The notes under the pieces: generated by a model
What the model was told of the DNA's origin: nothing
Seen by the model: the letters and a program-made list of their open reading frames with translations, nothing else
Database searches by the model: none
Position numbers and translations under genes: made by a program
Origin: Acidobacteriota bacterium
GTDB lineage: Bacteria > Acidobacteriota > Terriglobia > Terriglobales > Acidobacteriaceae
Assembly: GCA_021819585.1 (NCBI GenBank)
Contig: JAKAQS010000007.1
Span: forward strand, 1 to 39,944
Length of the DNA stretch: 39,944 nt
Direction of reading: 5' to 3'
Part shown: piece by piece, positions 24,508-38,036 of the stretch
Position numbering within the stretch: position 1 is the first letter of the stretch
Layout of the letters: each line of letters starts with the position of its first letter

Positions 24508-25089
24508 ATGAAGCGCATTCTTTCAGTAGCTTTCGTGTTGCTGATTACAGCAGTAGTGGCGCAGGCCGGAACGATCCACGGTAAGGTGACAGGCGCCAAA
24601 GGGCAGTCGGTCGTCTACATTGACGCAATTGCAGGCAAGACCTTTCCCGCCCCGGCGCAACACGCGGCTATGGATCAAAAGGGCTTGATGTTTGTTCCTC
24701 ACATTCTGGTGGTCTTGAAAGGGACCACGGTGGACTTCAAGAACGAGGACAGTGTAGAGCACAACGTATTCTGGCCTTCAATCAGCGGCAATAAGAGCCT
24801 TGGCCACAATATGGGAACCTGGCCCACCGGTCAGCAACGCAGCTTCAAGTTCGACACTACTGGAATCGTGCCCTTGCTCTGCAACGTGCATCCCGATATG
24901 TATGGCTACATCATCGTTTCGCCGACGCCTTACTACGCAACAACGGACAAAACAGGCGCCTTCACGATCGCCAATGTTCCCAACGGAACCTATAGCGTGA
25001 CTGCATGGAACGAGCGGGATAAGATGCGCACCCACACCGTTCAGGTGACGGTGAATGGCGATGTGACAACAACCATTCCCGTGAAGTGA
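24508..25089 (+). CDS. Secreted cupredoxin-like copper protein
   Basis: Periplasmic protein of 193 residues. The signal peptide (1-20) ends VVAQA. The cupredoxin part holds a full type-1 copper ligand set in the usual order: His85 (VEHNVFW), Cys125, His128 and Met131 (LLCNVHPDM). After the copper domain, residues 145-193 (TDKTGAFTIANVPNGTYSVTAW) look like a carboxypeptidase-regulatory/Cna-B strand set, so the protein joins two folds. It would carry single electrons in the periplasm. ATG 24508 is set by a perfect AAGGAGG at 24498-24504; an in-frame GTG at 24460 is rejected. It lies 70 bases before the respiratory operon on the same strand and may be part of it. Confidence 0.85.
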   Translation: MKRILSVAFVLLITAVVAQAGTIHGKVTGAKGQSVVYIDAIAGKTFPAPAQHAAMDQKGLMFVPHILVVLKGTTVDFKNEDSVEHNVFWPSISGNKSLGHNMGTWPTGQQRSFKFDTTGIVPLLCNVHPDMYGYIIVSPTPYYATTDKTGAFTIANVPNGTYSVTAWNERDKMRTHTVQVTVNGDVTTTIPVK

Positions 25090-25159: not shown

Positions 25160-27133
25160 ATGTTGAAGCGATTTGAAAACAAAGCGGTCGACGCGGGGTG
25201 GTTGAACAGCAACTTCCCCTGCATGATGGCTTGTCCGGCTCATACCAATGCGGGACGATACGTTGCGCTCATTGCGGAAGGCAAGTACGAAGATGCCTAC
25301 CGCTATGCGCGTGGCCCAAACCCTTTGGCCAGCGTCTGTGGCCGGGTTTGCGCTCACCCCTGCGAAACTGCCTGCCGCCGCGGTGAAATTGATCGCCCTA
25401 TCTCGATCCGGGCTCTCAAACGCTTTTTGACCGAGCGTCACGGCCCCGAGTCGCGGCGGCCTGTTGATGTCAATGCTGGATGCAGACAGAACAAACTGCC
25501 CTTCAGCATTGCGGTTGTGGGCGCCGGACCGGTTGGGCTCTCAGCCGCGCATGACCTGGCCGTGATGGGCTACTCGGTCACACTCTTCGAAGCTGCGCCG
25601 GTGGCAGGCGGTATGCTCCATCTTGGACTACCGGAGTACCGGCTGCCACGCAGTGTCATCCAGGCGCAGGTGCGCGAAATTCTCTCTACCGGGGATATCA
25701 CGCTGAAACTCAACCATGCGGCGGGCCGCGACTTCACCATCTCCGGATTGCGCAGTCAGGGCTTCGATGCGGTTCTGATTGCGGTCGGAGCCCATCGCAG
25801 CCGCGATCTCTCCATTCCAGGAGTGGATCTGGACGGCGTTCACAAGGGCATCGACTTCCTACTCAACGTCAATCTTGGCTATCAGTTCACCATCGGCAAG
25901 AAAGTGATTGTGATCGGCGGCGGCAATGTCGCCATGGATGTGGCCCGTTCGGCAGCGCGAGAAGTGCTGCGCCAGCATGCCGCCGGAGTTCAGGAACAGG
26001 AACCCCTTCAGGAGAACGTCAACGCGGTCGCCGGCAAGGAGATGATGGACATCTCCCTGTCCGCACTTCGTCTCGGAGCCAGTGAGGTACATCTGGTCTG
26101 TCTTGAAAACCGTGCCGAAATGCCGGCATCCGACGAAGAGATCGCCGAAGCTGAGGAAGAAGGGATCATTCTGCATCCTGGACTCGGCCCAAAGCGCATC
26201 ATCGGCGGCCCTGGCGGCGTCGCTGCCCTGGAAGTTCTCAAGACCAAGCAGGTATTCGACGCGGACGGCCGCTTTAACCCAGCCTTTTATGAGAACAGTG
26301 AGTTTCAGCTTGATTGCGACACCATCATCATGGCCATCGGCCAGGCTCCCAGGCTTGACTTCCTCCGCCCGGAGGACGGGGTCGAGATCTCGCGCCGGGG
26401 CCTGATCGCAGTCGAACCACGCACTCTCATGACCACAGCCCCGGGAGTCTTCGCGGGTGGCGATTGCGCGTTTGGGCCACGGCTGATCATCGACAGCGTC
26501 GCGGACGGCAAGCGAGCGGCGATGGGAATCGATGAGTACCTTCGGGGCGCCAGCCATCCGGAACCGACGATCGAAGTCGAGATCCTCCAACGCCACAGCA
26601 TGCCGCTCAACCTCCTGGATCTTGTCCGCAAAGACCCTCCCTTGCTTCCCCTGGACCGCCGAACCGGGGTCACCGAGGTCGAAACGGTTTACGACGAGGA
26701 GACGGCCCGGGCAGAAGCGCAACGCTGTCTGCACTGTTGGGTCAACACGATCTTCGAGGGCAGCCCGCTGGATGGAAGTCAATGCATCCTCTGTGGTGGT
26801 TGCGTTGATGTATGTCCGGAGAACTGTCTTGAACTGGTAAGTCTGGACCGCTTTGATTTCCAGCCTGCTGTTGTTGAACAGCTTATTGCCAACGAGCAAC
26901 TCCTCACTGTGGAACTGGACGATGTTCGGGCCGAGGAGCTTGGCACGATCTCTGGCTCCGTGATGCTGAAAGACGAGACGCGGTGCATCCGTTGTGGCCT
27001 TTGCGCAGCTCGATGCCCTGTGGGCACGATCACCATGGAATCCTACAACCTGATCCCGGCCGAACCGACCGGGCTCATCTCCACTGAATCCATCGAAGCG
27101 CCACTGCGCGCGACGCTGGCAGACAGAAAGTGA
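25160..27133 (+). CDS. GltD-like FAD/NAD(P) oxidoreductase with N-terminal Fe-S domain and C-terminal double [4Fe-4S] ferredoxin
   Basis: Cytoplasmic flavoprotein of 657 residues. An N-terminal Fer4_20-type domain has Cys21, Cys25, Cys60, Cys64, Cys68 and Cys72. A Pyr_redox fold follows, with FAD motif VVGAGPVGLSAA (119-130), NAD(P) motif VIGGGNVAMD (251-260) and the second FAD motif FAGGDCAFGP. A ferredoxin-like tail has CxxCxxCxxxC at 542-552 and 609-619, plus an extra CLHC at 523-526. This order is that of glutamate-synthase-small-subunit-like proteins that pass electrons between NAD(P)H and partner proteins. No glutamate synthase large subunit is near. Only seven bases separate it from the Rieske gene, so it should work with the quinol-cytochrome complex, possibly as NAD(P)H donor or, in reverse, acceptor. 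Confidence 0.88.
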   Translation: MLKRFENKAVDAGWLNSNFPCMMACPAHTNAGRYVALIAEGKYEDAYRYARGPNPLASVCGRVCAHPCETACRRGEIDRPISIRALKRFLTERHGPESRRPVDVNAGCRQNKLPFSIAVVGAGPVGLSAAHDLAVMGYSVTLFEAAPVAGGMLHLGLPEYRLPRSVIQAQVREILSTGDITLKLNHAAGRDFTISGLRSQGFDAVLIAVGAHRSRDLSIPGVDLDGVHKGIDFLLNVNLGYQFTIGKKVIVIGGGNVAMDVARSAAREVLRQHAAGVQEQEPLQENVNAVAGKEMMDISLSALRLGASEVHLVCLENRAEMPASDEEIAEAEEEGIILHPGLGPKRIIGGPGGVAALEVLKTKQVFDADGRFNPAFYENSEFQLDCDTIIMAIGQAPRLDFLRPEDGVEISRRGLIAVEPRTLMTTAPGVFAGGDCAFGPRLIIDSVADGKRAAMGIDEYLRGASHPEPTIEVEILQRHSMPLNLLDLVRKDPPLLPLDRRTGVTEVETVYDEETARAEAQRCLHCWVNTIFEGSPLDGSQCILCGGCVDVCPENCLELVSLDRFDFQPAVVEQLIANEQLLTVELDDVRAEELGTISGSVMLKDETRCIRCGLCAARCPVGTITMESYNLIPAEPTGLISTESIEAPLRATLADRK

Positions 27134-27140
27134 GCCTACA

Positions 27141-27632
27141 ATGACCACCACAAAGGATGCTTATATCGTTCAGGAAGGCGCGGCGCTCGATCGCAGGGAG
27201 TTTTTCACCAAGCTTGGCCTCGGCTCTCTGGGCGTAGCAACCGTTGGCGCCTTGGCGTTTTACTACCAGTACCTTTCACCCAACGTATTATTTGAGCCAT
27301 CACCCATTGTCAATGCCGGAGCCATCGATCGGTATCCCCTGGGCTCCGTCACGCTCGATGTCAACTCCGCAATCTATCTCGTGCATATAGCCAGAGGCTA
27401 CTTCTCTCTCAGCGCCATCTGCACCCACTTGGGCTGCATGACCGCTTGGAAGCCCGAGTTGAACATGATCGCGTGCCCATGCCATGGCAGCCGCTTCAAT
27501 CGCGAAGGGCAAAAGCTGGCCGGCCCGGCCCCTAAGCCTCTTCCATGGCTGAAAACCTGGTTGAGCGATGAAGGAGAGCTCATGGTCGACCGCTCCATTA
27601 CGATTCCACAGTTCCAGTTCCTGAGGGTATAA
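27141..27632 (+). CDS. Rieske [2Fe-2S] protein
   Basis: Rieske subunit of 163 residues for a cytochrome bc/b6f-type quinol oxidase. A twin-arginine N-terminus (DRREFFTKLG) precedes a membrane helix at about 28-45. The cluster motifs are CTHLGC (Cys94, His96) and CPCHGS (Cys112, His115), with Cys99 and Cys114 able to form the stabilising disulphide. It is short but complete. The gene begins 7 bases after the flavoprotein and ends 3 bases before cytochrome b, a clear operon. Confidence 0.95.
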   Translation: MTTTKDAYIVQEGAALDRREFFTKLGLGSLGVATVGALAFYYQYLSPNVLFEPSPIVNAGAIDRYPLGSVTLDVNSAIYLVHIARGYFSLSAICTHLGCMTAWKPELNMIACPCHGSRFNREGQKLAGPAPKPLPWLKTWLSDEGELMVDRSITIPQFQFLRV

Positions 27633-27635
27633 AAG

Positions 27636-28427
27636 ATGCCAGGCGCCATCGAAACCTACTTTGACAAACTCGAGCGCACGCGAGTGTGGCGATCGATCTT
27701 CCGCAGCGGGAAGGGCACGAGCACGCTTCACAATGCGTTGGCCATTCAGCAGAACGTATTTCTGCACCTGTTCCCCACCAAAGTTCGCAAACGAATGCTC
27801 GGGCTGGGTGCTACCTGGTACCTGGGAACACTCACGCTAGGTACATTTATCGTTCTAGTCGTCACCGGCATTCTCTTGATGCTCTACTACCATCCATCCG
27901 TACCGCGTGCTTATTCCGATGTGAAAGATCTCCAATTTGTCGTTTCTTCAGGTCTTTTCCTGCGCAATCTTCATCGCTGGTCGGCCCATGCAATGGTCTT
28001 TCTTGCCTTTGCACACATGTTCCGCGTCTTTTACCGTGGAGCATACCGCACTCCAAGAGAATTCAACTGGGTGATCGGGGTCGTTCTTCTCCTGGTAACT
28101 CTTTTGCTTAGCTACACCGGCTATTTGCTGCCTTGGGACCAACTCGCTTTTTGGGCAATCACTGTCGGAACGAATATCTCGTCCGCGGTGCCGCTCATCG
28201 GCGACAAAATCCGATTTATGCTCCTGGGCGGACATCTTGTAAACGCCAATGCCTTACTGCGGTTTTACGTGCTGCACTGCGTGATTCTACCTCTTACCGC
28301 GGTTTTGTTTTTGGCAGTTCACTTCTGGCGGATTCGCAAGGACGGAGGTCTATACGTGCGAGAGACCGAACCGGGTGTAACAAGCGCGGAAAAGCAACTT
28401 TCAAATCAGGAGCAGGGATCGCGATGA
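27636..28427 (+). CDS. Cytochrome b, N-terminal (b6-type) subunit
   Basis: Membrane cytochrome of 263 residues with four main helices and the two b-heme ligand pairs. Helix B has His113 and His127 ([17 protein letters not shown]). Helix D has His214 and His229 ([20 protein letters not shown]). The 15-residue step in helix D matches cytochrome b6 and not mitochondrial-type cytochrome b, which has 14. It forms the quinol oxidation core with the Rieske protein and the following subunit-IV-like protein. Its stop codon overlaps the next start in ATGA, so the two are translationally coupled. Confidence 0.94.
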
Positions 28428-29128
28428 CGCCTCCAAAAGATTACTCGGCTGAAGTCAACTCGAACATGCGAGTTTCCCAGCGGCGCGTCCTTTTCGTAAC
28501 GCGGCGCACCTCTCCCCAGGTTAAGGTGTACGACGAGGAGAGAGTGCAAAGCTCTCCAGAGGTGCTCATTCGAGCGCTGCTCGCAGTCGAGTGCCTGATT
28601 ATTGTTCTCGTGCTGATGTCACTGTTCTTCAACGCGCCGCTCGAAGGAGTCGCAAATCCGACGAACACTCCAAACCCGGCCAAAGCTCCGTGGTACTTTC
28701 TCGGGCTGCAGGAGATTTTGCACTACTTCCCACCTGTTGTAGCCGGGGTGCTCATTCCCGGCATGCTCGTTACCGCACTCATCATTATTCCCTATTTTGA
28801 CATCAATATCGAAGCGGATGGCCTCTTTCTGAAGAATCGCGAGCGGCGTCTGATGCTTTCCATGGCCGCCGCGGGCGCCCTGTCCATCTTCTTCCTGTTT
28901 TTCAAGGTGTATGTGGCGCTGGCCCCGACGCTGATCGTGACGGCATTCGTACTGGTTGCGGCTTTCAGTCCTCCAGAGTCGTCAGGACGCTTTCGACGGT
29001 ATCTCGCACTAAGACCAATCTTCTGGTGGATCATGACTTGGTTTCTTTTTGAACTCATCGTTCTCACGGCAGTGGGCACCTTCTTCCGCGGCCCTGGTTG
29101 GTCGTGGGTTTGGCCATGGAGGAGTTAG
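28424..29128 (+). CDS. Cytochrome b, C-terminal (subunit IV-like) subunit
   Basis: Membrane protein of 234 residues that completes the split cytochrome b. A long cytoplasmic N-terminus (1-46) is followed by helices at about 47-70, 103-124, 145-183 (two) and 198-220. The quinol-site motif that reads PEWY in b6f and many bc1 complexes is here APWY (88-91, in [10 protein letters not shown]), so the Glu is replaced by Ala, as in various menaquinol-type complexes. Start ATG 28424 overlaps the previous stop; an in-frame start 97 codons upstream lies inside cytochrome b and is not used. The next gene starts directly after the stop. Confidence 0.92.
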
Positions 29129-31186
29129 ATGCAAACGAACAATAAGGGCTCATTCTCCTCGATCAGGGCATTCTTGTGCGACCCTTTCCGCATGTTCGGG
29201 GTCGTCAGCGTGATCTTGCTCTTGCTGTTGACGGTGGCGCCGGCAAAGGATTACTTCAGCCAGTGGCGCAGCTACCAGAGGCAGTACCTTAACCTCATCC
29301 GCAATCGGGGCGATGCGGTAACGTTGCTTCGGCACTTTCAAGGCGGCATCCAGCAGATTTGGATTCCTCAGTTGGGCGTGATCGATCGTTGCCAGACCTG
29401 TCACGTTGGCGTGGCTGAGGCAAGCCTTGCCGATGTTAAAGAGCAGCCGTTCCGGGCACATCCACCGATTCCGCACAAGCTTACCGAGTTCGGGTGTGTG
29501 ATATGCCATCGTGGCCAAGGTGCGGCGACGACCGTCTCGGAGGCGCACCACAGCAAAATGGCCGGCGAAGAGCCCATCCTTCCCATGCGCTACATTGAGG
29601 CTTCCTGCGGCCAATGTCACCACGAGCCCCTCGAAGGCACTCCCAAACTCAACCAAGGCCGTCTGATGCTCGCTCGCTATGGATGCGTCAACTGCCATGC
29701 CGTCACTCTTCCCGACGGCAGCACAATGCAAGGTACGGACAATCCTCCGCCATTGACTCACATCGCCGACAAAACCACCCGGGAGTGGATTTACGCCTGG
29801 CTCAAGGATCCCACAAGTTATTCCGCATCATCCACCATGCCGAACTTTCTGTTTAGCGACGCCGACGCGAGTGACATCTCAGCGTTTTTGATTGCAAACA
29901 GTACGCCGCAGCCGGGTGATTCGATGGCGTATTCGGCGACTTCGAGTGGATCCGCTTCCGATTCATCGGCAGGCGCCGTCCTCTATGGCGAGTCGTTCTG
30001 CGCATCCTGTCACGCGACCCAGAATGAGGCCGGCAATCTGGTTGGTGGAGATCTTGGACCTGAACTGACCAACGTTGGGACGAAAGTCAAGCCCGGCTGG
30101 CTCATGGCATGGCTGAAGGATCCACATACGTACGATCCCACGACAAAGATGCCGCAGTATCGGTGGACTGACCAGCAACTCCAAACCCTGACTGCCTACG
30201 TTGCCGGCAAGACAGATCCGGATTTTGTGGCCAATGTTCACCTGCAGCCTGCGACCCAGGCGCAGATAGCACACGGTAAAAAGCTGGTCATCGAGTATGG
30301 TTGCGCCTCATGCCATGAAATCACAGGGATACCGAAGCCAGACAACTTCGCGCCCGACCTCAGCAGAATCGGCAGTAAGCCCCTGGTTCAGCTCATCTTT
30401 CTACCCGGGATGGAGCAGAGCCTGCCTGCCTATCTCGCAGAGAAGATCCGACAGCCACGCGCCTTTGGGCCCTCGCTTCATATGCCCAAGTACAGCTTCA
30501 GCACAAGTCAGATCGAAGACCTGACCACCGCGCTGCTTTCCTTCACGAACCGTAGTTTCACCCTCCCTCCGAACCTGCAGATCCCGGCGGTCCAGGACAC
30601 AAACTACCGTCCGGCGGGTCAGGCGGGCCAGTTGATGGCAAACATCAACTGCCTGAGTTGCCATCGCATCAACGGCAACGGAGGCACGATGGCTCCCGAT
30701 CTTAGCTGGGAGGGGTCGTCGGTTCAACAACCGTGGCTTGATACCTTCCTCAAGAATCCCAACACTTTGCGCCCAACCCTGATTCGGCGTATGCCCAAAT
30801 TCAACCTTACGGATTCGGAACGCACTGTGTTGACCAACTACATGATGACCGTCTACCAGACGCCTGCATTCGAGCGTGACGAGATGCCCCTGAGCGGGTA
30901 CTCTCCGGATCTCGTCGAAAAGGGCCGCCAACTGTTTTATTCCAAGTACGCTTGCCAGTCCTGCCACATTGTCAATCCCAACCAGGACAAAGGTTACATC
31001 GGCCCCACCCTGACAACCGTTGGCGCTCGCCTCAATGCCGCGTGGATCTTCCACTACCTGAAAGATCCTCAGGCAATACGGCCCGAAACCATTGAACCCA
31101 ATCAACACATCAGCGACGACGACGCTCAGGCATTAACGGCATTCCTTATGACACAGAAAACTATCGCTGGGCAGGGGGCAAAATGA
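29129..31186 (+). CDS. Octaheme cytochrome c, membrane-anchored
   Basis: Protein of 685 residues with one N-terminal membrane helix (about 22-38) and the rest in the periplasm. Eight CxxCH sites are present: Cys88, 123, 160, 186, 291, 392, 508 and 609. The first three sit in a compact head (88-165). The last five belong to class-I-like cytochrome c domains. Four of these show a downstream Met-Pro ligand (Met237, Met341, Met452, Met555); the fifth has IEPNQH where the Met is expected. It takes the place of cytochrome c1 or f in this complex, accepting electrons from the Rieske protein. It starts at the base after the previous stop, with GGAGGAG upstream. Confidence 0.92.
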   Translation: MQTNNKGSFSSIRAFLCDPFRMFGVVSVILLLLLTVAPAKDYFSQWRSYQRQYLNLIRNRGDAVTLLRHFQGGIQQIWIPQLGVIDRCQTCHVGVAEASLADVKEQPFRAHPPIPHKLTEFGCVICHRGQGAATTVSEAHHSKMAGEEPILPMRYIEASCGQCHHEPLEGTPKLNQGRLMLARYGCVNCHAVTLPDGSTMQGTDNPPPLTHIADKTTREWIYAWLKDPTSYSASSTMPNFLFSDADASDISAFLIANSTPQPGDSMAYSATSSGSASDSSAGAVLYGESFCASCHATQNEAGNLVGGDLGPELTNVGTKVKPGWLMAWLKDPHTYDPTTKMPQYRWTDQQLQTLTAYVAGKTDPDFVANVHLQPATQAQIAHGKKLVIEYGCASCHEITGIPKPDNFAPDLSRIGSKPLVQLIFLPGMEQSLPAYLAEKIRQPRAFGPSLHMPKYSFSTSQIEDLTTALLSFTNRSFTLPPNLQIPAVQDTNYRPAGQAGQLMANINCLSCHRINGNGGTMAPDLSWEGSSVQQPWLDTFLKNPNTLRPTLIRRMPKFNLTDSERTVLTNYMMTVYQTPAFERDEMPLSGYSPDLVEKGRQLFYSKYACQSCHIVNPNQDKGYIGPTLTTVGARLNAAWIFHYLKDPQAIRPETIEPNQHISDDDAQALTAFLMTQKTIAGQGAK

Positions 31187-31917: not shown

Positions 31918-32098
31918 ACGAGCGGAGCTGGTGATTTTGTGAGTGAGGGTAGCGTACGAAGAGCTTCTCCTCCGGCTTCCGGGTTGGAGCGCTGTTCGCA
32001 ACTGCTGCGACCGAATATTTTTCATCTCGCCGAACGGTACAACCGGGCAAGTTGGCAAGGTTGTGCTCAATTGATTGATGCAAACAAGGAGGATATAT

Positions 32099-33457
32099 AT
32101 GAAGTTTTCACCTTTGGGGACCAATACCGTACTATCGGTGGCAGCACTTTCGTTCCTGATCTCCGCATTCCCCAAGGATGCAATGGCCGTGCCAAGCTAT
32201 GCCCGTCAAACAGGGCTGCCGTGCAGCGGCTGTCACTATGATCCGCCGGAGTTGAATCCCGCTGGACGGCTTTTCAAGCTACTGGCTTACGTACAGCGCT
32301 CGAGCCTTCTCGGCAGCATAACGGCAAACAGCGGCGGGAAAAGCGCTGGGCTGGATCTTCTTCAGGCACTGCCTCTTGCGGTCATGTTGGAGACCTCATA
32401 CACTTCGCTGAACAGTCCGGAGCCGAACAATCAAAATGGTAACTTTGAGTTTCCCCAGGATATCTCCCTGTTTCTCTCCGGAGCCTGGACGAGCAACATC
32501 GGAAGCTTTCTTCAGGTTACATACGACACCCAAGAGGATCACTTCGGTATAGACAATACCGACATTCGGTTCGCAAACCAGACGAAGCTGGATGGCAAGG
32601 ATCTGGTCTACGGCCTCGATTTCAATAACAATCCGACGGTAGAAGATCTTTGGAACGACACGCCGGCGTGGGGTTTCCCATGGATTCAAAGCGACTTCGC
32701 GCCGACGCCGGCCGCTGTCCCTATCATCGATGGCGCTCTGGCCCAGGATGTTGCCGGATTCGGCGGTTACACCATGTGGAATCGCCATGTGTATCTGGAT
32801 GTGGCGGCCTACACCTCAGAGCACGTTGGCGCTCCACAACCAAACTCAGGAAATGGCTTCTCGTACAATATCCGCAACGCTGCCCCCTACTGGCGCCTCG
32901 CCTATCAGGGGCATACAACCACGATGCAGTATGAAATTGGAACCTATGGGATGCATATGCATAGCAGCCCCAATGCAGTCGTTGGTCCTGAGGATGATTA
33001 CACCGATTACGCCTTTGATACGCAACTCGATCAATCGCTGTTCCGGACAGATGTACTTTCCTTCCGTGGCAATTTCATCCGCGAGAACTCTGACTTGCTG
33101 GCAAGCCTCAGCCAAGGATTGGCTTCTCAAGGAGGACACCATCTAGACACGGGAACAGTTAATGCCGAATACCACATCGGGAACAAATATACGGGTACAT
33201 TCCAGTGGTTTGAAACAAACGGCACAACAGATCCTCTGCGCTATTCTCCCGCTCCAGTCACCGGCAGCGCCAATGGGAACCCGAGGAGCGCCGGATACAT
33301 CCTCAACTTCTCATACTGGCCATGGCAAAACCTCCAAATTTCGCCGCAATACACCGCATATACACGTTTCAACGGTGGTTCGACGAACTACGATGGTTCG
33401 GGACGCAACGCCAGCGCCAATAACACGTTCTATCTGGATGTTAAGTTCCTCTTCTGA
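32099..33457 (+). CDS. Monoheme cytochrome fused to outer-membrane beta-barrel (Cyc2-like layout)
   Basis: Protein of 452 residues. The signal peptide (1-30) ends DAMA. Directly after it stands VPSYARQTGLPCSGCHYDPP with one heme site (Cys42-His46), followed by LNPAGRLFKL. The rest (about 80-452) has alternating amphipathic strands, many Tyr/Trp/Asn/Gly residues and a terminal Phe (VKFLF), as in outer-membrane barrels. The order heme, then PxLNxxGRxFK, then porin is that of fused cytochrome-porins such as Cyc2 of Fe(II) oxidisers. Similar proteins of unknown role are common, so the iron link is a hypothesis. ATG 32099 is fixed by AAGGAGG at 32086-32092. The 181-base gap upstream leaves room for its own promoter. 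Confidence 0.82.
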   Translation: MKFSPLGTNTVLSVAALSFLISAFPKDAMAVPSYARQTGLPCSGCHYDPPELNPAGRLFKLLAYVQRSSLLGSITANSGGKSAGLDLLQALPLAVMLETSYTSLNSPEPNNQNGNFEFPQDISLFLSGAWTSNIGSFLQVTYDTQEDHFGIDNTDIRFANQTKLDGKDLVYGLDFNNNPTVEDLWNDTPAWGFPWIQSDFAPTPAAVPIIDGALAQDVAGFGGYTMWNRHVYLDVAAYTSEHVGAPQPNSGNGFSYNIRNAAPYWRLAYQGHTTTMQYEIGTYGMHMHSSPNAVVGPEDDYTDYAFDTQLDQSLFRTDVLSFRGNFIRENSDLLASLSQGLASQGGHHLDTGTVNAEYHIGNKYTGTFQWFETNGTTDPLRYSPAPVTGSANGNPRSAGYILNFSYWPWQNLQISPQYTAYTRFNGGSTNYDGSGRNASANNTFYLDVKFLF

Positions 33458-33790: not shown

Positions 33791-33833
33791 GGTGTGCTAG
33801 CCAGGGCCTCGGAGAGCCCCTGGCTAGCACACC
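33791..33833. repeat. Perfect 16-bp inverted repeat
   Basis: GGTGTGCTAGCCAGGG at 33791-33806 and its exact complement at 33818-33833 enclose an 11-nt loop (CCTCGGAGAGC). The right arm contains the TAG stop codon (33824-33826, minus strand) of the HipA-like gene. It could end transcription from either side, but neither side has a clear U-run. It could also be a small mobile palindrome. Confidence 0.7.
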
Positions 33834-34918
33834 TTTCCCATATCTTCCGCAAGGCATCCCGGCGCGGTGTCACGAACGGCGAGAGATGGTTCCGCCGCAT
33901 CCGAAATTTGCTCCTGGACGTTCAGCAGGCGGCCGCCCCTCCAGTTTGGAAAGGGCGATTGGCGGGATCGCCGCAGTTGCCATATCATCTCCCTCAGGCG
34001 ATGGCGCCTGGCAAGCAGTGTCTCTACCAGCAACTCGAGTCGATTCTGATCAGCCCCGTGCCATTCTGACGGCACAGCCTGGGCTAGACCCCACAGAAGT
34101 TCGGGATCAAACTCTTCCATCCGGGTGAGCCATGGCTCGAAGCTGTTCCAACCGGTTACGGCGGCATAGACTCTGGTGTCCATGCACCGTCCCAGAAGTG
34201 GAGCGTCCTGAAACTCCCACTGGCTTCCGCTGAAACAGGATCCCTGATCGATGAACAGAACACGATAGTCGGGTTCTGGCGCATTCCGTAGAAAGATGGC
34301 CTGACGACGGTCGGTGTTGCTTGTCCAGCGGTCGAAGGCGAGCATGGGAGCGAACTCACTTAGATTGCATACATTGCGGAGCCACTCGCCGGGCAGAAGA
34401 TCAAAGGCCTGCTGGTGCAGAACCCCAGCGCCGAACCGGCTTCCGAACTGCAAGCCGCTTGCGCATCTCTCCCAACGCCGGTATCCATATTGGATGACCA
34501 GTTGCGGGCTGCATTCAATCAACCATTCACTGACCTGGATCATTCCCGTCCTGGGCACCGACAATCCCACCAGTTCTGCCATCCGGCTAGCCAGAAACTC
34601 ATTGGCCAGCACCCTGGAATGCTGGGGGTTATTTTTAAACTTGACCACCCACAATGCCTGGTCTTCACCCAGAATCAACTTGCTCTGCGAACCGCCTCGC
34701 AGGGAGGAGATCGCCTGCACCGCCCTTATCGGCGTCTCCGGGAAACACCCCATCTGTCTGGCCGGCCGCTCGGTCAGCGGAGAACCGGCTTCTGGAGCCC
34801 CATGCGCTGCATCTGTCGAGGGGTTCAGCGATGCTCTGATGTCCATGCGCCCGGAGGCCCGCAAAGAGACTTCCGCAGGTGCGCCCACAGTTGCACCCTG
34901 CCACGCGCTTGCCCCCAT
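33824..34918 (-). CDS. HipA-like kinase family protein
   Basis: Protein of 364 residues from the start chosen here. The kinase domain has the glycine-rich start ISSLRGGSQSKL and the ATP-binding lysine in WVVKFKNNPQH (Lys93). The catalytic-loop-like segment is FDRWTSNTDRRQ (Asp203) and the metal-binding Asp lies in FIDQGSCF (Asp224). This matches the HipA_2 family and not the full two-domain HipA toxin; no HipB-like DNA-binding partner is encoded beside it. ATG 34918 is chosen because AGGAG lies about ten bases upstream; the conserved part begins near residue 60, so ATG 34753 is possible too. Its role is unknown. It is on the opposite strand inside the respiratory gene region. Confidence 0.75.
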   Translation of the reverse strand: MGASAWQGATVGAPAEVSLRASGRMDIRASLNPSTDAAHGAPEAGSPLTERPARQMGCFPETPIRAVQAISSLRGGSQSKLILGEDQALWVVKFKNNPQHSRVLANEFLASRMAELVGLSVPRTGMIQVSEWLIECSPQLVIQYGYRRWERCASGLQFGSRFGAGVLHQQAFDLLPGEWLRNVCNLSEFAPMLAFDRWTSNTDRRQAIFLRNAPEPDYRVLFIDQGSCFSGSQWEFQDAPLLGRCMDTRVYAAVTGWNSFEPWLTRMEEFDPELLWGLAQAVPSEWHGADQNRLELLVETLLARRHRLREMIWQLRRSRQSPFPNWRGGRLLNVQEQISDAAEPSLAVRDTAPGCLAEDMGKVC

Positions 34919-35610
34919 GACTACACACTCCTGTTCAGGGAATCGGAGAAACAGGAGGCATCTTGAGATCTGTCTCAATCTGGGGCAGCCTTCGCCCAGG
35001 TTCAATCGTAATCCCCCGCCACCGCCTCAGCGCTGCGATTCTGATCCCCCACCTGCGCATGATTCCCGTCCAGAGGGTCGTCCTTCTTCCGAACCAGGCT
35101 TTTCTTCCCTATACCAAGCTCGGGGCTCCACTCTACCGTCCACCGGTCTGTGGCGACTGCCGGTCGCATCCTACCGCACCGTTCCAATGCCGGCTTGCTT
35201 AGCGATACCAAATTCTTGACCGGCACCGCATCCTTGTCAGCACCGGTTCTTGCCTGCAAGCGCTCTCCAAGTCGGTGCCGGGATCGTCACTTCCCAGGGC
35301 CTCCCTGCCCGCTTCGGTATCGATCCTCGGCACCTATCCTCGGCAGCAATCCATCCTCGCCCTCAGGACCGGCAACGCTGAACCCGACTCTTCTGTGGAG
35401 ATGAGCCGTCTTCTGCCTCTATCCCGCCTCGGACCGGTCTCGACCACTACCCTGTCATCTGCACAGATCCAGAACCTTCGTCTTGTGATGAAGCTCACAT
35501 ACGTTAGTCGTTCTCTTGCCGCCCAATAAGGCAACATCGAATTGGCCTCCCGAGATTCACGCTTCAGAGGGTCGTTCGCTGCAATTGCCTCGCGAAAGCG
35601 ATATCGCTTG
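34919..35610. other. Gap between the kinase and tetraheme genes
   Basis: About 690 bases between divergent genes. It contains C-rich low-complexity DNA (for example TCCTCGG and TCCTCG repeats near 35320-35365). Short frames on both strands look like noise. It must contain the promoters of the kinase (left) and the tetraheme operon (right). Confidence 0.4.
35596..35609. promoter_or_regulatory. 14-bp perfect palindrome before the tetraheme start
   Basis: AAGCGATATCGCTT reads the same on both strands and ends one base before the ATG at 35611. No normal ribosome site is visible there, so it covers the place where one would be. It may be a repressor site or an RNA hairpin limiting translation. 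This is a visible pattern with an inferred role. Confidence 0.4.
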
Positions 35611-36084
35611 ATGAAGAACTTCAGGGATTCGGAACATCTACTCAGATTCGCCTTTCTCTTTGCGATGTTGTTCGTCCTGTTTCTGGTCGCTCGCCACTTC
35701 GTTGTACCGAAGAGCTTCGGAGAATACGGGCACTATCGCGGGGCAGCCATCGCGGAGATGGCTGCCCCGCAACCCCACTTCGCCGGGCAATCGGCATGCG
35801 AAGCCTGTCACACGGACATCGCCGCCAAGAAAAAGACCGGAATGCACTCCGGCGTTCATTGCGAAGCTTGCCACGGTCCTCTGGCCCGGCACGCTGCCGA
35901 TCCTGCATCCGTTCAGCCGCTCAAACTTGACACGGCCGTTCTGTGCGTGCGCTGCCATGCAGCCAGCGCCGCCAAGCCAAAGAACTTCCCGCAGGTAGCC
36001 GCGGCAGACCACTCCGGTGGCCTCGCCTGTGAGACCTGCCACCATCCTCACAGCCCAGCCATTCAAGGCGGAGGCGCCAAATGA
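35611..36084 (+). CDS. Membrane-anchored tetraheme cytochrome c
   Basis: Protein of 157 residues with one N-terminal helix (about 11-31) and a periplasmic part with four CxxCH sites at 63-67, 84-88, 112-116 and 140-144. Extra histidines nearby (His80, His83, His94, His134) could serve as distal ligands. It resembles the small multiheme partner in NrfD-type modules, such as triheme DsrJ or the tetraheme member of Geobacter Cbc-type complexes, but identity with either is not claimed. ATG 35611 is preferred to an upstream TTG at 35542 because the membrane helix follows at normal distance. The stop overlaps the next start in ATGA. Confidence 0.87.
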   Translation: MKNFRDSEHLLRFAFLFAMLFVLFLVARHFVVPKSFGEYGHYRGAAIAEMAAPQPHFAGQSACEACHTDIAAKKKTGMHSGVHCEACHGPLARHAADPASVQPLKLDTAVLCVRCHAASAAKPKNFPQVAAADHSGGLACETCHHPHSPAIQGGGAK

Positions 36085-36815
36085 ATCTCAACCGACGCCA
36101 ATTTCTCGTACTGGTGCCCGTCGCGGCAGCCGCATGGCAGTATGTGCTGGCGGGTACTCCCCAGGACGCTCCCAACTACCAACTCACCGAACATTGGTGG
36201 GGCATGTTGCTCGATATCACCAAGTGCATCGGCTGCGGAAACTGCGTCCGCGCATGCCAGGCGGAAAACGATGTGCCGGATGAGTACTTTCGCACCTGGG
36301 TCGAGCGCTACCTGAGAACCGATTGGAACCTGACCACTCCAGAGGTCATCTCTCCCGATGGCGGCAAAGAGGGCTTCCCGGCCGCCGAAGAAGTCAAGAA
36401 CGGCATGTACTTCTTCGTTCCCAAGATGTGCAACCACTGCGCCGACTCCCCGTGTACCCAGGTATGTCCCGTAGGGGCCACCTTCATTACTCCGGATGGC
36501 GTGGTGCTGATCGACCAGACCTACTGTCTTGGCTGCGCCTACTGCGTGCAGGCCTGCCCGTATGGCTGCCGCTATATTCACCCCACAAAACACGTCGCCG
36601 ACAAGTGTACGCTCTGCTATCACCGCATCACCAAGGGCCTTACCACCGCCTGCTGTGAGAACTGCCCCACCGGCGCGCGTCAACTGGTCGATCTCAAAAA
36701 CCCCAATGATCCCATCCACGCCTTTCTGAAGACTCATGATGTGCATGTCCTCAAGCCGGAGATGGCGACGGGAGCGAAGGCGTTTTACAACGGTTTGGAT
36801 GGCTCAGTGCGATAG
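36081..36815 (+). CDS. Tat-exported ferredoxin subunit with four [4Fe-4S] sites
   Basis: Electron-transfer subunit of 244 residues, related to PsrB/NrfC/DsrO. The N-terminus MNLNRRQFLVLVPVAAAA is a twin-arginine signal, so it works on the periplasmic side. Cysteine groups: 49-52-55-59, 117-120-125-129, 149-152-155-159, and 176-179 with 191/192 and 195. It would pass electrons between the tetraheme protein and the NrfD-type membrane subunit. Coupled by a four-base overlap to the gene before and 30 bases from the gene after. No molybdopterin catalytic subunit is encoded next to it. Confidence 0.93.
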   Translation: MNLNRRQFLVLVPVAAAAWQYVLAGTPQDAPNYQLTEHWWGMLLDITKCIGCGNCVRACQAENDVPDEYFRTWVERYLRTDWNLTTPEVISPDGGKEGFPAAEEVKNGMYFFVPKMCNHCADSPCTQVCPVGATFITPDGVVLIDQTYCLGCAYCVQACPYGCRYIHPTKHVADKCTLCYHRITKGLTTACCENCPTGARQLVDLKNPNDPIHAFLKTHDVHVLKPEMATGAKAFYNGLDGSVR

Positions 36816-36845
36816 TCACTGAGATAGAAGGAGGAACGGACCATT

Positions 36846-38036
36846 ATGGGCGGCGTCGAAGGCTACATGTATCCCAATGAGATCAATCTGTACTGGAGCG
36901 TCCTGATCGTCGTGTACCCCTACGTAACGGGACTGGTTGCAGGCGCGTTTATCCTGGCGTCCCTGGTGCGCATCTTCAACGTGAGAGAGGTGGCGCCCAC
37001 CTATCGCCTTGCTCTATTGACCGCCTTGGCGTTTCTGATCGTGGCGCCCTTGCCGCTGCTGCTCCACCTCGGCCATCCCGAGCGCTCCTTTGAGATGTAC
37101 TTCACCCCTCATGACACCTCGGCCATGGCCATGTTTGGCTACGTCTATATCTGGTACCTGATGGCTGTGCTGTTATTCGAGATCTGGCTCGACTTCCGCC
37201 AGGACATCATCCTCACGGCCCGCTCCTCGAAAGGCCTCAAGCGAACCTTCTATTTCCTGCTGAGCCTGGGCTCAAACAACACCAGTGAGCACTCTCTCGC
37301 CATCGATGAAAGGGCCGGATGGATCGTCACCCTGATTGGCATACCCTCGGCGTTTCTTCTGCACGGGTACGTTGGCTTCATCTTCGGTTCGATCAAGGCC
37401 AATCCATGGTGGAGTTCACCCCTTATGCCGGTGGTCTTCATCTTCTCCGCCATGGTCTCTGGCATCGCCTTGGTGCTCCTGGTGTACATGTTCACCACCC
37501 GCGTGCGGCGCCGCGAAATCGACATGCCCTGCGTGGACACCATCGCCAAGTATCTCTTCTATATCTTCATCATCGACTTCGTTCTCGAGATGCTCGACCT
37601 GGTCCATCGCATCTATGTCGCCGACGAAAGCTTCCGTTCCATCAGCTTCATGGTCCACACCAAACTCTACTTCTCCCAGATCGTGCTGCAGATCTACATC
37701 GGAACGCTGGCGCCCCTGCTCCTCCTGGGCATCGTTCAGGTGACCAGATTCTCCCCAGCCGTGCGCAAGGCCATCTATGTTGTCTCGGCTGCGCTGGTTG
37801 AGGTCGCCGTCCTCTCCATGCGCTGGAATGTGGTCATCGGCGGGCAACTCTTCTCCAAGAGCTTCCTCGGATACACCACCTACAAGATCGGCCTGATTAC
37901 GCACGAAGGTGTGCTTATGTCCATCTTTCTTACCCTGCTCCCTTTGGGAATCCTATGGATTCTGGTCAAGATACTTCCACCCTGGCCGGATCTCAAGCGG
38001 GGCATGAACCACGCCGCAGGTACGACCATGCCATAA
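36846..38036 (+). CDS. NrfD/PsrC-type quinone-interacting membrane subunit
   Basis: Integral membrane protein of 396 residues with about nine or ten helices. The pattern INLYWSVLIVVYPYVTGLVAG, LLLHLGHPERSFEMY and the later Glu/Asp-containing helices are typical of NrfD/PsrC/DsrP proteins, which exchange electrons and protons with the quinone pool. Together with the tetraheme and ferredoxin proteins it forms a quinone:cytochrome oxidoreductase-like module. ATG 36846 has GGAGG about ten bases upstream. The direction of electron flow cannot be read from sequence. Confidence 0.92.
   Translation: MGGVEGYMYPNEINLYWSVLIVVYPYVTGLVAGAFILASLVRIFNVREVAPTYRLALLTALAFLIVAPLPLLLHLGHPERSFEMYFTPHDTSAMAMFGYVYIWYLMAVLLFEIWLDFRQDIILTARSSKGLKRTFYFLLSLGSNNTSEHSLAIDERAGWIVTLIGIPSAFLLHGYVGFIFGSIKANPWWSSPLMPVVFIFSAMVSGIALVLLVYMFTTRVRRREIDMPCVDTIAKYLFYIFIIDFVLEMLDLVHRIYVADESFRSISFMVHTKLYFSQIVLQIYIGTLAPLLLLGIVQVTRFSPAVRKAIYVVSAALVEVAVLSMRWNVVIGGQLFSKSFLGYTTYKIGLITHEGVLMSIFLTLLPLGILWILVKILPPWPDLKRGMNHAAGTTMP

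Follow-up and report, generated by a model that had tools for sequence, protein, structure and literature searches.

A Cyc2-like fused cytochrome-porin as the probable, exchangeable outer-membrane port of an anammox-like Rieske/cytochrome b complex in Acidobacteriota

A stretch of 39,944 nucleotides from an Acidobacteriota bacterium (GenBank assembly GCA_021819585.1, contig JAKAQS010000007.1; hereafter, the window) was found to encode a fused cytochrome-porin (FCP) at the end of an operon for a Rieske/cytochrome b complex. The protein is called Cyc2-like here rather than Cyc2. Judging from its gene neighborhood and its relatives, the FCP quite probably provides this complex with an electron port in the outer membrane, most likely an exchangeable one. 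The reading as a whole, in which the FCP would be the port of a dedicated chain with Fe(II) as the most likely donor and with an inward flow of electrons, was given a probability of approximately 0.5. The roles of FCPs outside the verified clades are uncertain. Because the operon, the absence shared with a cupredoxin and the repeated replacement tie the FCP to one complex, its role becomes testable. No earlier description of an operon combining an FCP, a cupredoxin and a Rieske/b complex was found in the open-access literature searched. The features of the region are as follows.

24508..25089, + strand: periplasmic cupredoxin with a carboxypeptidase-regulatory-like domain (Pfam Copper-bind; ORF from GTG 24460, likely start ATG 24508)
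25160..27133, + strand: GltD-like FAD/NAD(P) oxidoreductase with N-terminal Fer4_20 and C-terminal 4Fe-4S sites
27141..27632, + strand: Rieske [2Fe-2S] protein with a Tat-like RREFF (best PDB match 9rk4, Kuste4569)
27636..28427, + strand: b6-type cytochrome b with N-terminal His44 (codon 27765-27767)
28424..29128, + strand: subunit-IV-like protein, Cytochrom_B_C (ExtQ-like below the model cut-off)
29129..31186, + strand: octaheme c-type cytochrome (8 CxxCH) with one N-terminal TM-like segment
31183..31917, + strand: probable lipoprotein with a Big_1-like domain (below the Pfam cut-off) and a monoheme cytochrome c
32086..32092, + strand: Shine-Dalgarno-like AAGGAGG, 6 nt before the FCP ATG at 32099 (read from the sequence)
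32099..33457, + strand: FCP, Cyc2-like, 452 aa (open ORF)
32099..32188, + strand: FCP signal peptide, residues 1-30 (from hydrophobicity; cleavage after AMA by eye)
32186..32254, + strand: core of the FCP heme domain, AVPSYARQTGLPCSGCHYDPPEL, with CxxCH at 32222-32236
32378..33448, + strand: predicted 16-strand outer-membrane barrel of the FCP, residues 94-450 (low-confidence model)

The initial annotation had described a signal peptide, a single CxxCH directly after it and a long domain ending in Phe, and all of these were seen in the 452-aa ORF. A hydrophobic stretch leads to AMA and then to VPSYARQTGLPCSGCHYDPPELNPAGRLFK, which is followed by a long domain with a terminal Phe, and exactly one CxxCH is present, near the N-terminus. 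An alternative start, an in-frame TTG, lies 24 bp upstream of the ATG. Pfam (E ≤ 0.1) and NCBIfam (E ≤ 0.01) searches with the protein returned no match. The motif before CxxCH is AVPSYARQT, and the strict Cyc2 form PxFAR[QK][TY] upstream of CxxCH, which was the screen behind the published Cyc2 tree, fails at one residue, with Tyr for Phe; for this reason, the protein was designated Cyc2-like rather than Cyc2. The strict motif was present in 61 of the 99 FCPs collected and in 18 of the 31 members of the group to which the window FCP belongs, and the FCP of locus L003, which is 82% identical to that of the window, carries it. PxL (here PEL) begins 4 residues after the heme His, and 93 of the 99 FCP rows were alike in this respect. 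The length of the protein exceeds the 365 aa taken as the minimum for Cyc2.

The fold of the FCP was predicted with AlphaFold2 from a 14-row alignment. The model (pLDDT 55.0, pTM 0.58) contained 16 strands of at least 7 residues between residues 94 and 450, a count that leaves out three further strands of 3-4 residues. The model of a relative 48% identical to the window FCP likewise had 16 such strands (pLDDT 54.1, pTM 0.59). Foldseek returned outer-membrane porins as the best matches, with OprP third and OprO fourth; VIA-align gave the highest score to OprO (Z 17.9), with OprP at 17.6 and porins of the OmpF/OmpC type level with them. The porins matched in these searches are presumably 16-stranded. 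The VIA-align list contained no cytochrome at the N-terminus of the FCP, a part of the model that was barely tested by the alignment. Thus, of the 16-strand barrel with an N-terminal heme plug that had been put forward for checking, the barrel emerged, at low confidence, and the plug did not; the heme domain was poorly modelled, residues 22-55 being below pLDDT 50. In excerpts of the work of Keffer et al. (PMC8406198), Cyc2 is described as a 16-strand porin like OprO/OprP, which were the templates used there, with the motifs AXPXFAR[Q/K][T/Y] and PXL.

The FCP is the last gene of a single-strand operon that runs from the cupredoxin through the oxidoreductase, Rieske protein, cytochrome b, subunit IV and octaheme c to the lipoprotein c. 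From the cupredoxin to the lipoprotein c, the genes overlap or are separated by at most 70 bp, and 181 bp then lead to the FCP. The oxidoreductase has Pyr_redox_2, Fer4_20 and Fer4 domains and no TM-like segment. The type-1 copper site of the cupredoxin (His, Cys, His, Met) is conserved, and the copper, Rieske and heme-b ligands were conserved in at least 95% of the aligned rows (28 cupredoxins, 44 Rieske proteins and 44 cytochromes b). It had been claimed that the FCP adjoins a cupredoxin and a bc-type complex. They do share its operon, and the cupredoxin was confirmed by Pfam Copper-bind, but it lies 7 kb upstream with the complex in between. Nor is the complex of the Acidithiobacillus type, as had been supposed; it is b6-like and includes both an octaheme c and a subunit for NAD(P), FAD and 4Fe-4S, the combination described for Rieske/b complexes of anammox bacteria. 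Beginning 2 kb downstream of the FCP, a second redox operon on the same strand (35542-38036) encodes a tetraheme cytochrome, a 4Fe-4S protein and an NrfD-type membrane protein; in the window genome as a whole, NrfD had five matches, of which one is short. Between the FCP and this operon, a HipA-like kinase is encoded on the minus strand (33824-35005).

The window Rieske protein was compared with 177635 distinct PDB sequences. The best match was 9rk4 (E 6.4e-24), and the fourth was 9rk3 (E 9.2e-16), the latter close to Rieske proteins of b6f. 9rk4 is Kuste4569 and 9rk3 is Kustd1480, both Rieske proteins of the anammox bacterium Kuenenia; according to passages of PMC12954380, the complexes of this bacterium combine a b6-like cytochrome b, subunit IV, a hexa/octaheme c and an NAD(P) oxidoreductase. 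The same passages discuss the formation of NAD(P)H as a proposed function of these complexes and report an extra heme b predicted on an N-terminal His of the Kuenenia cytochrome b. The best PDB matches of the window cytochrome b were cytochromes b6, gap-free over 177 aa, and the next gene carries Cytochrom_B_C. His44 was found in all 48 rows of the window cytochrome b class (47 distinct, since L003 = L043; Kuste4571 was not in the alignment). It was missing in all 9 divergent cytochromes b, and no such oxidoreductase was found in their surrounding DNA. His44 was also present at L133, L138 and L140, where the oxidoreductase lies more than 4 kb away, at L139, where none was found, and at L130, where the contig ends inside it. 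Therefore, His44 marks the cytochrome class and not strict gene adjacency. Two cytochrome b matches of this operon type, conserved in other respects (G257:C12:73175-73912 and G265:C4:620015-620758), were each reported with one in-frame TGA. Cys35 of cytochrome b6 holds heme cN. In the window protein, Tyr62 aligns with this residue, so that it lacks the heme cN feature of b6f; on this ground, the window complex is described as having the architecture of the anammox type and not as a member of it.

The linkage of the FCP to the complex was examined in 396 Acidobacteriota genomes with the window cytochrome b as the query, to avoid selecting on the FCP. At least 208 genomes matched (E ≤ 1e-40), and the best 44 of the places listed, the window included, were used. 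Of these 44 best places, 32 had an FCP on the same strand at a distance of at most 9 kb, and 30 of the 32 also had a cupredoxin (27 directly; L043, L044 and L048 were counted from L003 and from wider pieces). The other two, L094 and L098, had an FCP without a cupredoxin match and a monoheme c nearby instead. Seven of the places without an FCP lay at contig edges with less than 2.2 kb of upstream DNA; L123 among them shows the cupredoxin, and L128, with 1.8 kb, shows neither gene. The remaining five had at least 4.9 kb upstream and contained neither FCP nor cupredoxin in every case: L125 and L127 have the same compact operon, and L133, L138 and L140 are those with the distant oxidoreductase. 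Although the numbers are modest, the pattern is that of a complex which can stand alone and to which the cupredoxin and the FCP are added together.

Full-length homologues of the FCP in Acidobacteria were 49-89% identical to it, and 16 loci were found in the genome collection, all acidobacterial by record title. Homologues were also found in 12 records of Pseudomonadota plasmids (30-39% identity, best E 2e-77), 9 of which cover at least 80% of the query; the other 3 gave short, weak matches. A chance ORF was ruled out by these relatives. The plasmid hosts were Caballeronia, Paraburkholderia, Acidithiobacillus, Acidiphilium, Methylocystis, Ideonella and Polymorphobacter, and no known Cyc2 was recognised among the plasmid matches. 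The Acidithiobacillus ferrooxidans plasmid and the Acidiphilium cryptum plasmid gave matches of equal score and identity. Of the nine full-length plasmid homologues, six (L018-L023) were examined; all six lie near c-type cytochrome genes, and one also lies near a HiPIP gene. No viral copy of the window-type FCP was confirmed. The Cyc2 clusters 1-3 reportedly come from McAllister 2020 and Keffer 2021. Acidobacterial 'cyc2' was already known, as Acidobacteriota made up 4 of the 6 cyc2 MAGs in one study according to an excerpt of PMC10367259, and a passage of PMC10654088 mentions a Cyc572 cluster with Acidobacteria.

An alignment of 19 FCP sequences contained 44 invariant columns that span the heme domain and the barrel. 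The profile built from them gave matches in 105 of the 396 Acidobacteriota genomes (E ≤ 1e-8), and these split sharply into full-length matches and matches confined to approximately the first 155 profile positions, that is, the heme domain and the start of the barrel. The full-length class comprised 12 places, including the window, and one more in two pieces. By hand count, 80 of the 128 other profile places listed were taken, nearly all of the best-scoring ones with some skipped. The FCP tree had 99 rows: the window, 13 from the genome collection, 6 from plasmids and 79 further Acidobacteriota places; the fragments L004, L015 and L017 and the duplicate L043 (= L003) were left out. The window FCP fell into a group of 31 with a QT motif (support 100, stem 1.86), and the other 68 FCPs, most of them with ARKY-like motifs, stood apart from it. 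Since long branches meet at the root of this tree, its deep relations are unsure.

Other gene partnerships were seen in this tree. Seventeen acidobacterial FCPs formed a clade of their own (support 100; L071, L073, L076, L082, L083, L085, L086, L088, L090, L092, L096, L102, L103, L105, L108, L110 and L113), and at every one of these 17 loci, an ORF for a 4- or 5-heme cytochrome of approximately 450-640 aa lies on the same strand no more than 3.5 kb away, which is a second conserved FCP partnership. In one branch of the QT group (L011-L014, L046, L047, L049 and L053), the FCP immediately precedes another kind of Rieske/cytochrome b, with 30-44% identity, and a 4-heme ORF was nearby in 7 of these 8 loci. 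Genomes G007, G273 and G388 carry FCPs of both QT-group branches.

The history of the FCP on its operon was followed in a tree of the oxidoreductase, Rieske protein and cytochrome b with 40 rows, 35 with an FCP (3 of them from the genome collection) and 5 without. For the QT family of the window FCP (10 rows), 5 changes were required, of which 4 or more fall on branches with good support; the tree was a quick one, and the FCP groups were chosen after the FCPs had been seen. A single clade for the QT family was rejected on the operon tree (p-AU 2.7e-51), and L051 (QT) and L059 (ARKY) were sisters with support 100. Sorting by whole sequences, with L139 and the FCP-less rows left out, gave at least four FCP families on the operon class and 7 changes against a least possible 3, and the QT count stayed at 5. 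Sorting by motif letters (QT, RQY, RKY) was rejected as wrong for L134-L137, which have an ARKY motif, yet share 41-68% identity with the RQY set across most of the sequence. In L137, the motif lies in a separate piece of a broken FCP gene; L126 has no heme motif in view, and its fragment is 55-57% identical to the nearest ARKY-type rows. The FCP was at the 3' end of the operon in the clade of the window with L005, L043, L044 and L048 and at the 5' end in all other FCP-bearing operons of the linkage test. Other lineages have their FCP upstream of the cupredoxin; at that position in the window, no convincing remnant of an older one was found (best E 0.014). The FCP was thus exchanged repeatedly on this operon class.

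The window genome contained one FCP of the window type and four COX1 matches. The COX1 genes found lie on contigs other than that of the window, and a second cytochrome b was found on contig C24 with one of them. No MtrB_PioB match was obtained at E ≤ 0.001, and an MtrAB/PioAB-type route was rejected on that basis. A search for phosphoribulokinase (E ≤ 0.001) found none. A PF00016 match could be read as a sign of the Calvin cycle, and this was rejected because its best NCBIfam match was OiaX-like (440 of 700 bits, below the cut-off). The OiaX-like protein, at L146:9506-11128 on contig C303, is encoded beside an OiaK-like kinase in a cluster with rhamnosidase, fucosidase and arabinofuranosidase-like genes, and it could easily be mistaken for a sign of carbon fixation. 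Considering that the only RuBisCO match is OiaX-like and that no phosphoribulokinase was found, Calvin-cycle autotrophy appears unlikely, although gene absences are soft here because the bin is 93% complete. The organism looks heterotrophic, apparently with an ordinary respiratory chain elsewhere, to which the FCP operon would be an extra.

The following chain would account for these data. Some small donor in solution, Fe(II) being the most likely, would enter the 16-strand pore of the FCP and pass one electron to its single heme. From there, the electron would move to the periplasmic carriers of the same operon, namely, the cupredoxin, the octaheme c and the lipoprotein monoheme c. These carriers would exchange electrons with the Rieske protein of the anammox-like, b6-type complex with its cytoplasmic FAD/NAD(P) subunit and probably also with terminal oxidases encoded elsewhere in the genome. 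What had been claimed as a Cyc2-like FCP was upheld for the monoheme, the predicted 16-strand porin, the motif region and the link to a cupredoxin and a Rieske/b complex, and it fell short in the strict motif. Fe(II) oxidation seems to be the likeliest use of the FCP, but it is a weaker part of the reading than the port role. The NAD(P) subunit and the lack of a phosphoribulokinase match do not fit a simple Fe(II) autotroph.

The direction of electron flow is not readable from sequence. The main rival is an outward flow, which would fit the complex about as naturally and which we consider possible but rather unlikely as an overall account: the Rieske/b complex would oxidise quinol and send the high-potential electron out by way of the octaheme c, the cupredoxin and the FCP, with dissolved Fe(III) or some other extracellular acceptor at the end, and the low-potential electron would reduce NAD(P)+ via the FAD/4Fe-4S subunit. 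Such a flow is consistent with Kuste4569 as the best match of the Rieske protein and with the N-terminal His in every row of the cytochrome b class. The subunit set is also that of the Kuenenia complexes, for which passages of PMC12954380 give quinol-driven NAD(P)H formation; however, that mechanism is itself a proposal, and a monoheme pore suits soluble acceptors only. Cyc2 forms of A. ferrooxidans were also linked to Fe(III) reduction in excerpts of PMC10715153 and PMC8790237, the latter of which suggests Cyc2/rusticyanin as a route to ferric iron in this species and reports iron reduction for isolates close to Acidobacteriaceae.

It is also conceivable, though doubtful, that the same port and chain take electrons from a different dissolved donor, for instance Mn(II), an organic redox mediator or a compound of sulfur. 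A change of substrate would be in keeping with the large sequence differences among the FCP families of this one operon class, but no substrate-specific feature was found in the FCP. Mn(II) oxidation needs a potential far higher than 208 mV. This is the value reported for a Cyc2 heme in an excerpt of PMC8406198, although a passage of PMC9040806 proposes Cyc2 for Mn(II) oxidation in Manganitrophaceae. Very improbable, in our judgement, is a heme-capped porin for metal or solute uptake or for sensing, with no electron-port role and an incidental link to the operon. The low confidence of the FCP model would leave room for it, and we know of no measured activity for any acidobacterial FCP; against it stand the linkage in 32 of 44 places, the replacement by other FCP families and the joint absence with the cupredoxin. 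Apart from these alternatives, a broader proposal is put forward only tentatively: an anammox-like, NAD(P)-linked and possibly electron-bifurcating Rieske/b complex with an interchangeable FCP terminus may form a modular system in which outside metal redox is coupled to the formation or use of NAD(P)H and in which a porin swap changes the substrate or the pH range. If true, this would be a coupling route between an outside metal and NAD(P)H via one Rieske/b complex that was not found described in the open-access literature searched. Acidobacteriota are common in acid soils and peat, and for finding such organisms, the FCP-Rieske/b link would be a better marker than the porin sequence alone.

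Compared with known systems, the window FCP resembles Cyc2 in its signal peptide, the single N-terminal CxxCH with AxPx[F/Y]ARQT before and PxL after it, the 16-strand barrel predicted for it, to which OprO/OprP are among the closest folds, the length above 365 aa and the neighboring periplasmic electron carriers. Unlike Cyc2, it has Tyr for Phe in the strict motif and shares its operon with a Rieske/b complex that is b6-type and NAD(P)-linked. With the Fe(II) chain of A. ferrooxidans (Cyc2, rusticyanin, Cyc1, aa3 and bc1), the window set shares an outer-membrane cytochrome, a blue copper protein and a bc-type complex. The arrangement in Acidithiobacillus is cyc2-cyc1-cox-rus. The window set, in contrast to that chain, lies in one operon, has an amicyanin-like CxxHxxM copper loop and an extra NAD(P) subunit, and belongs to a genome whose COX1 genes were found on other contigs. 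The closest likeness of the complex itself is to Kuste4569-4573 and Kustd1480-1485, with which it has in common the Rieske protein, the b6-like cytochrome b, subunit IV, a hexa/octaheme c, the FAD/NAD(P)/Fe-S subunit and, possibly, the N-terminal His of cytochrome b, whereas it is tied to an FCP and a cupredoxin and not, as the anammox complexes are, to an HAO-like octaheme protein.
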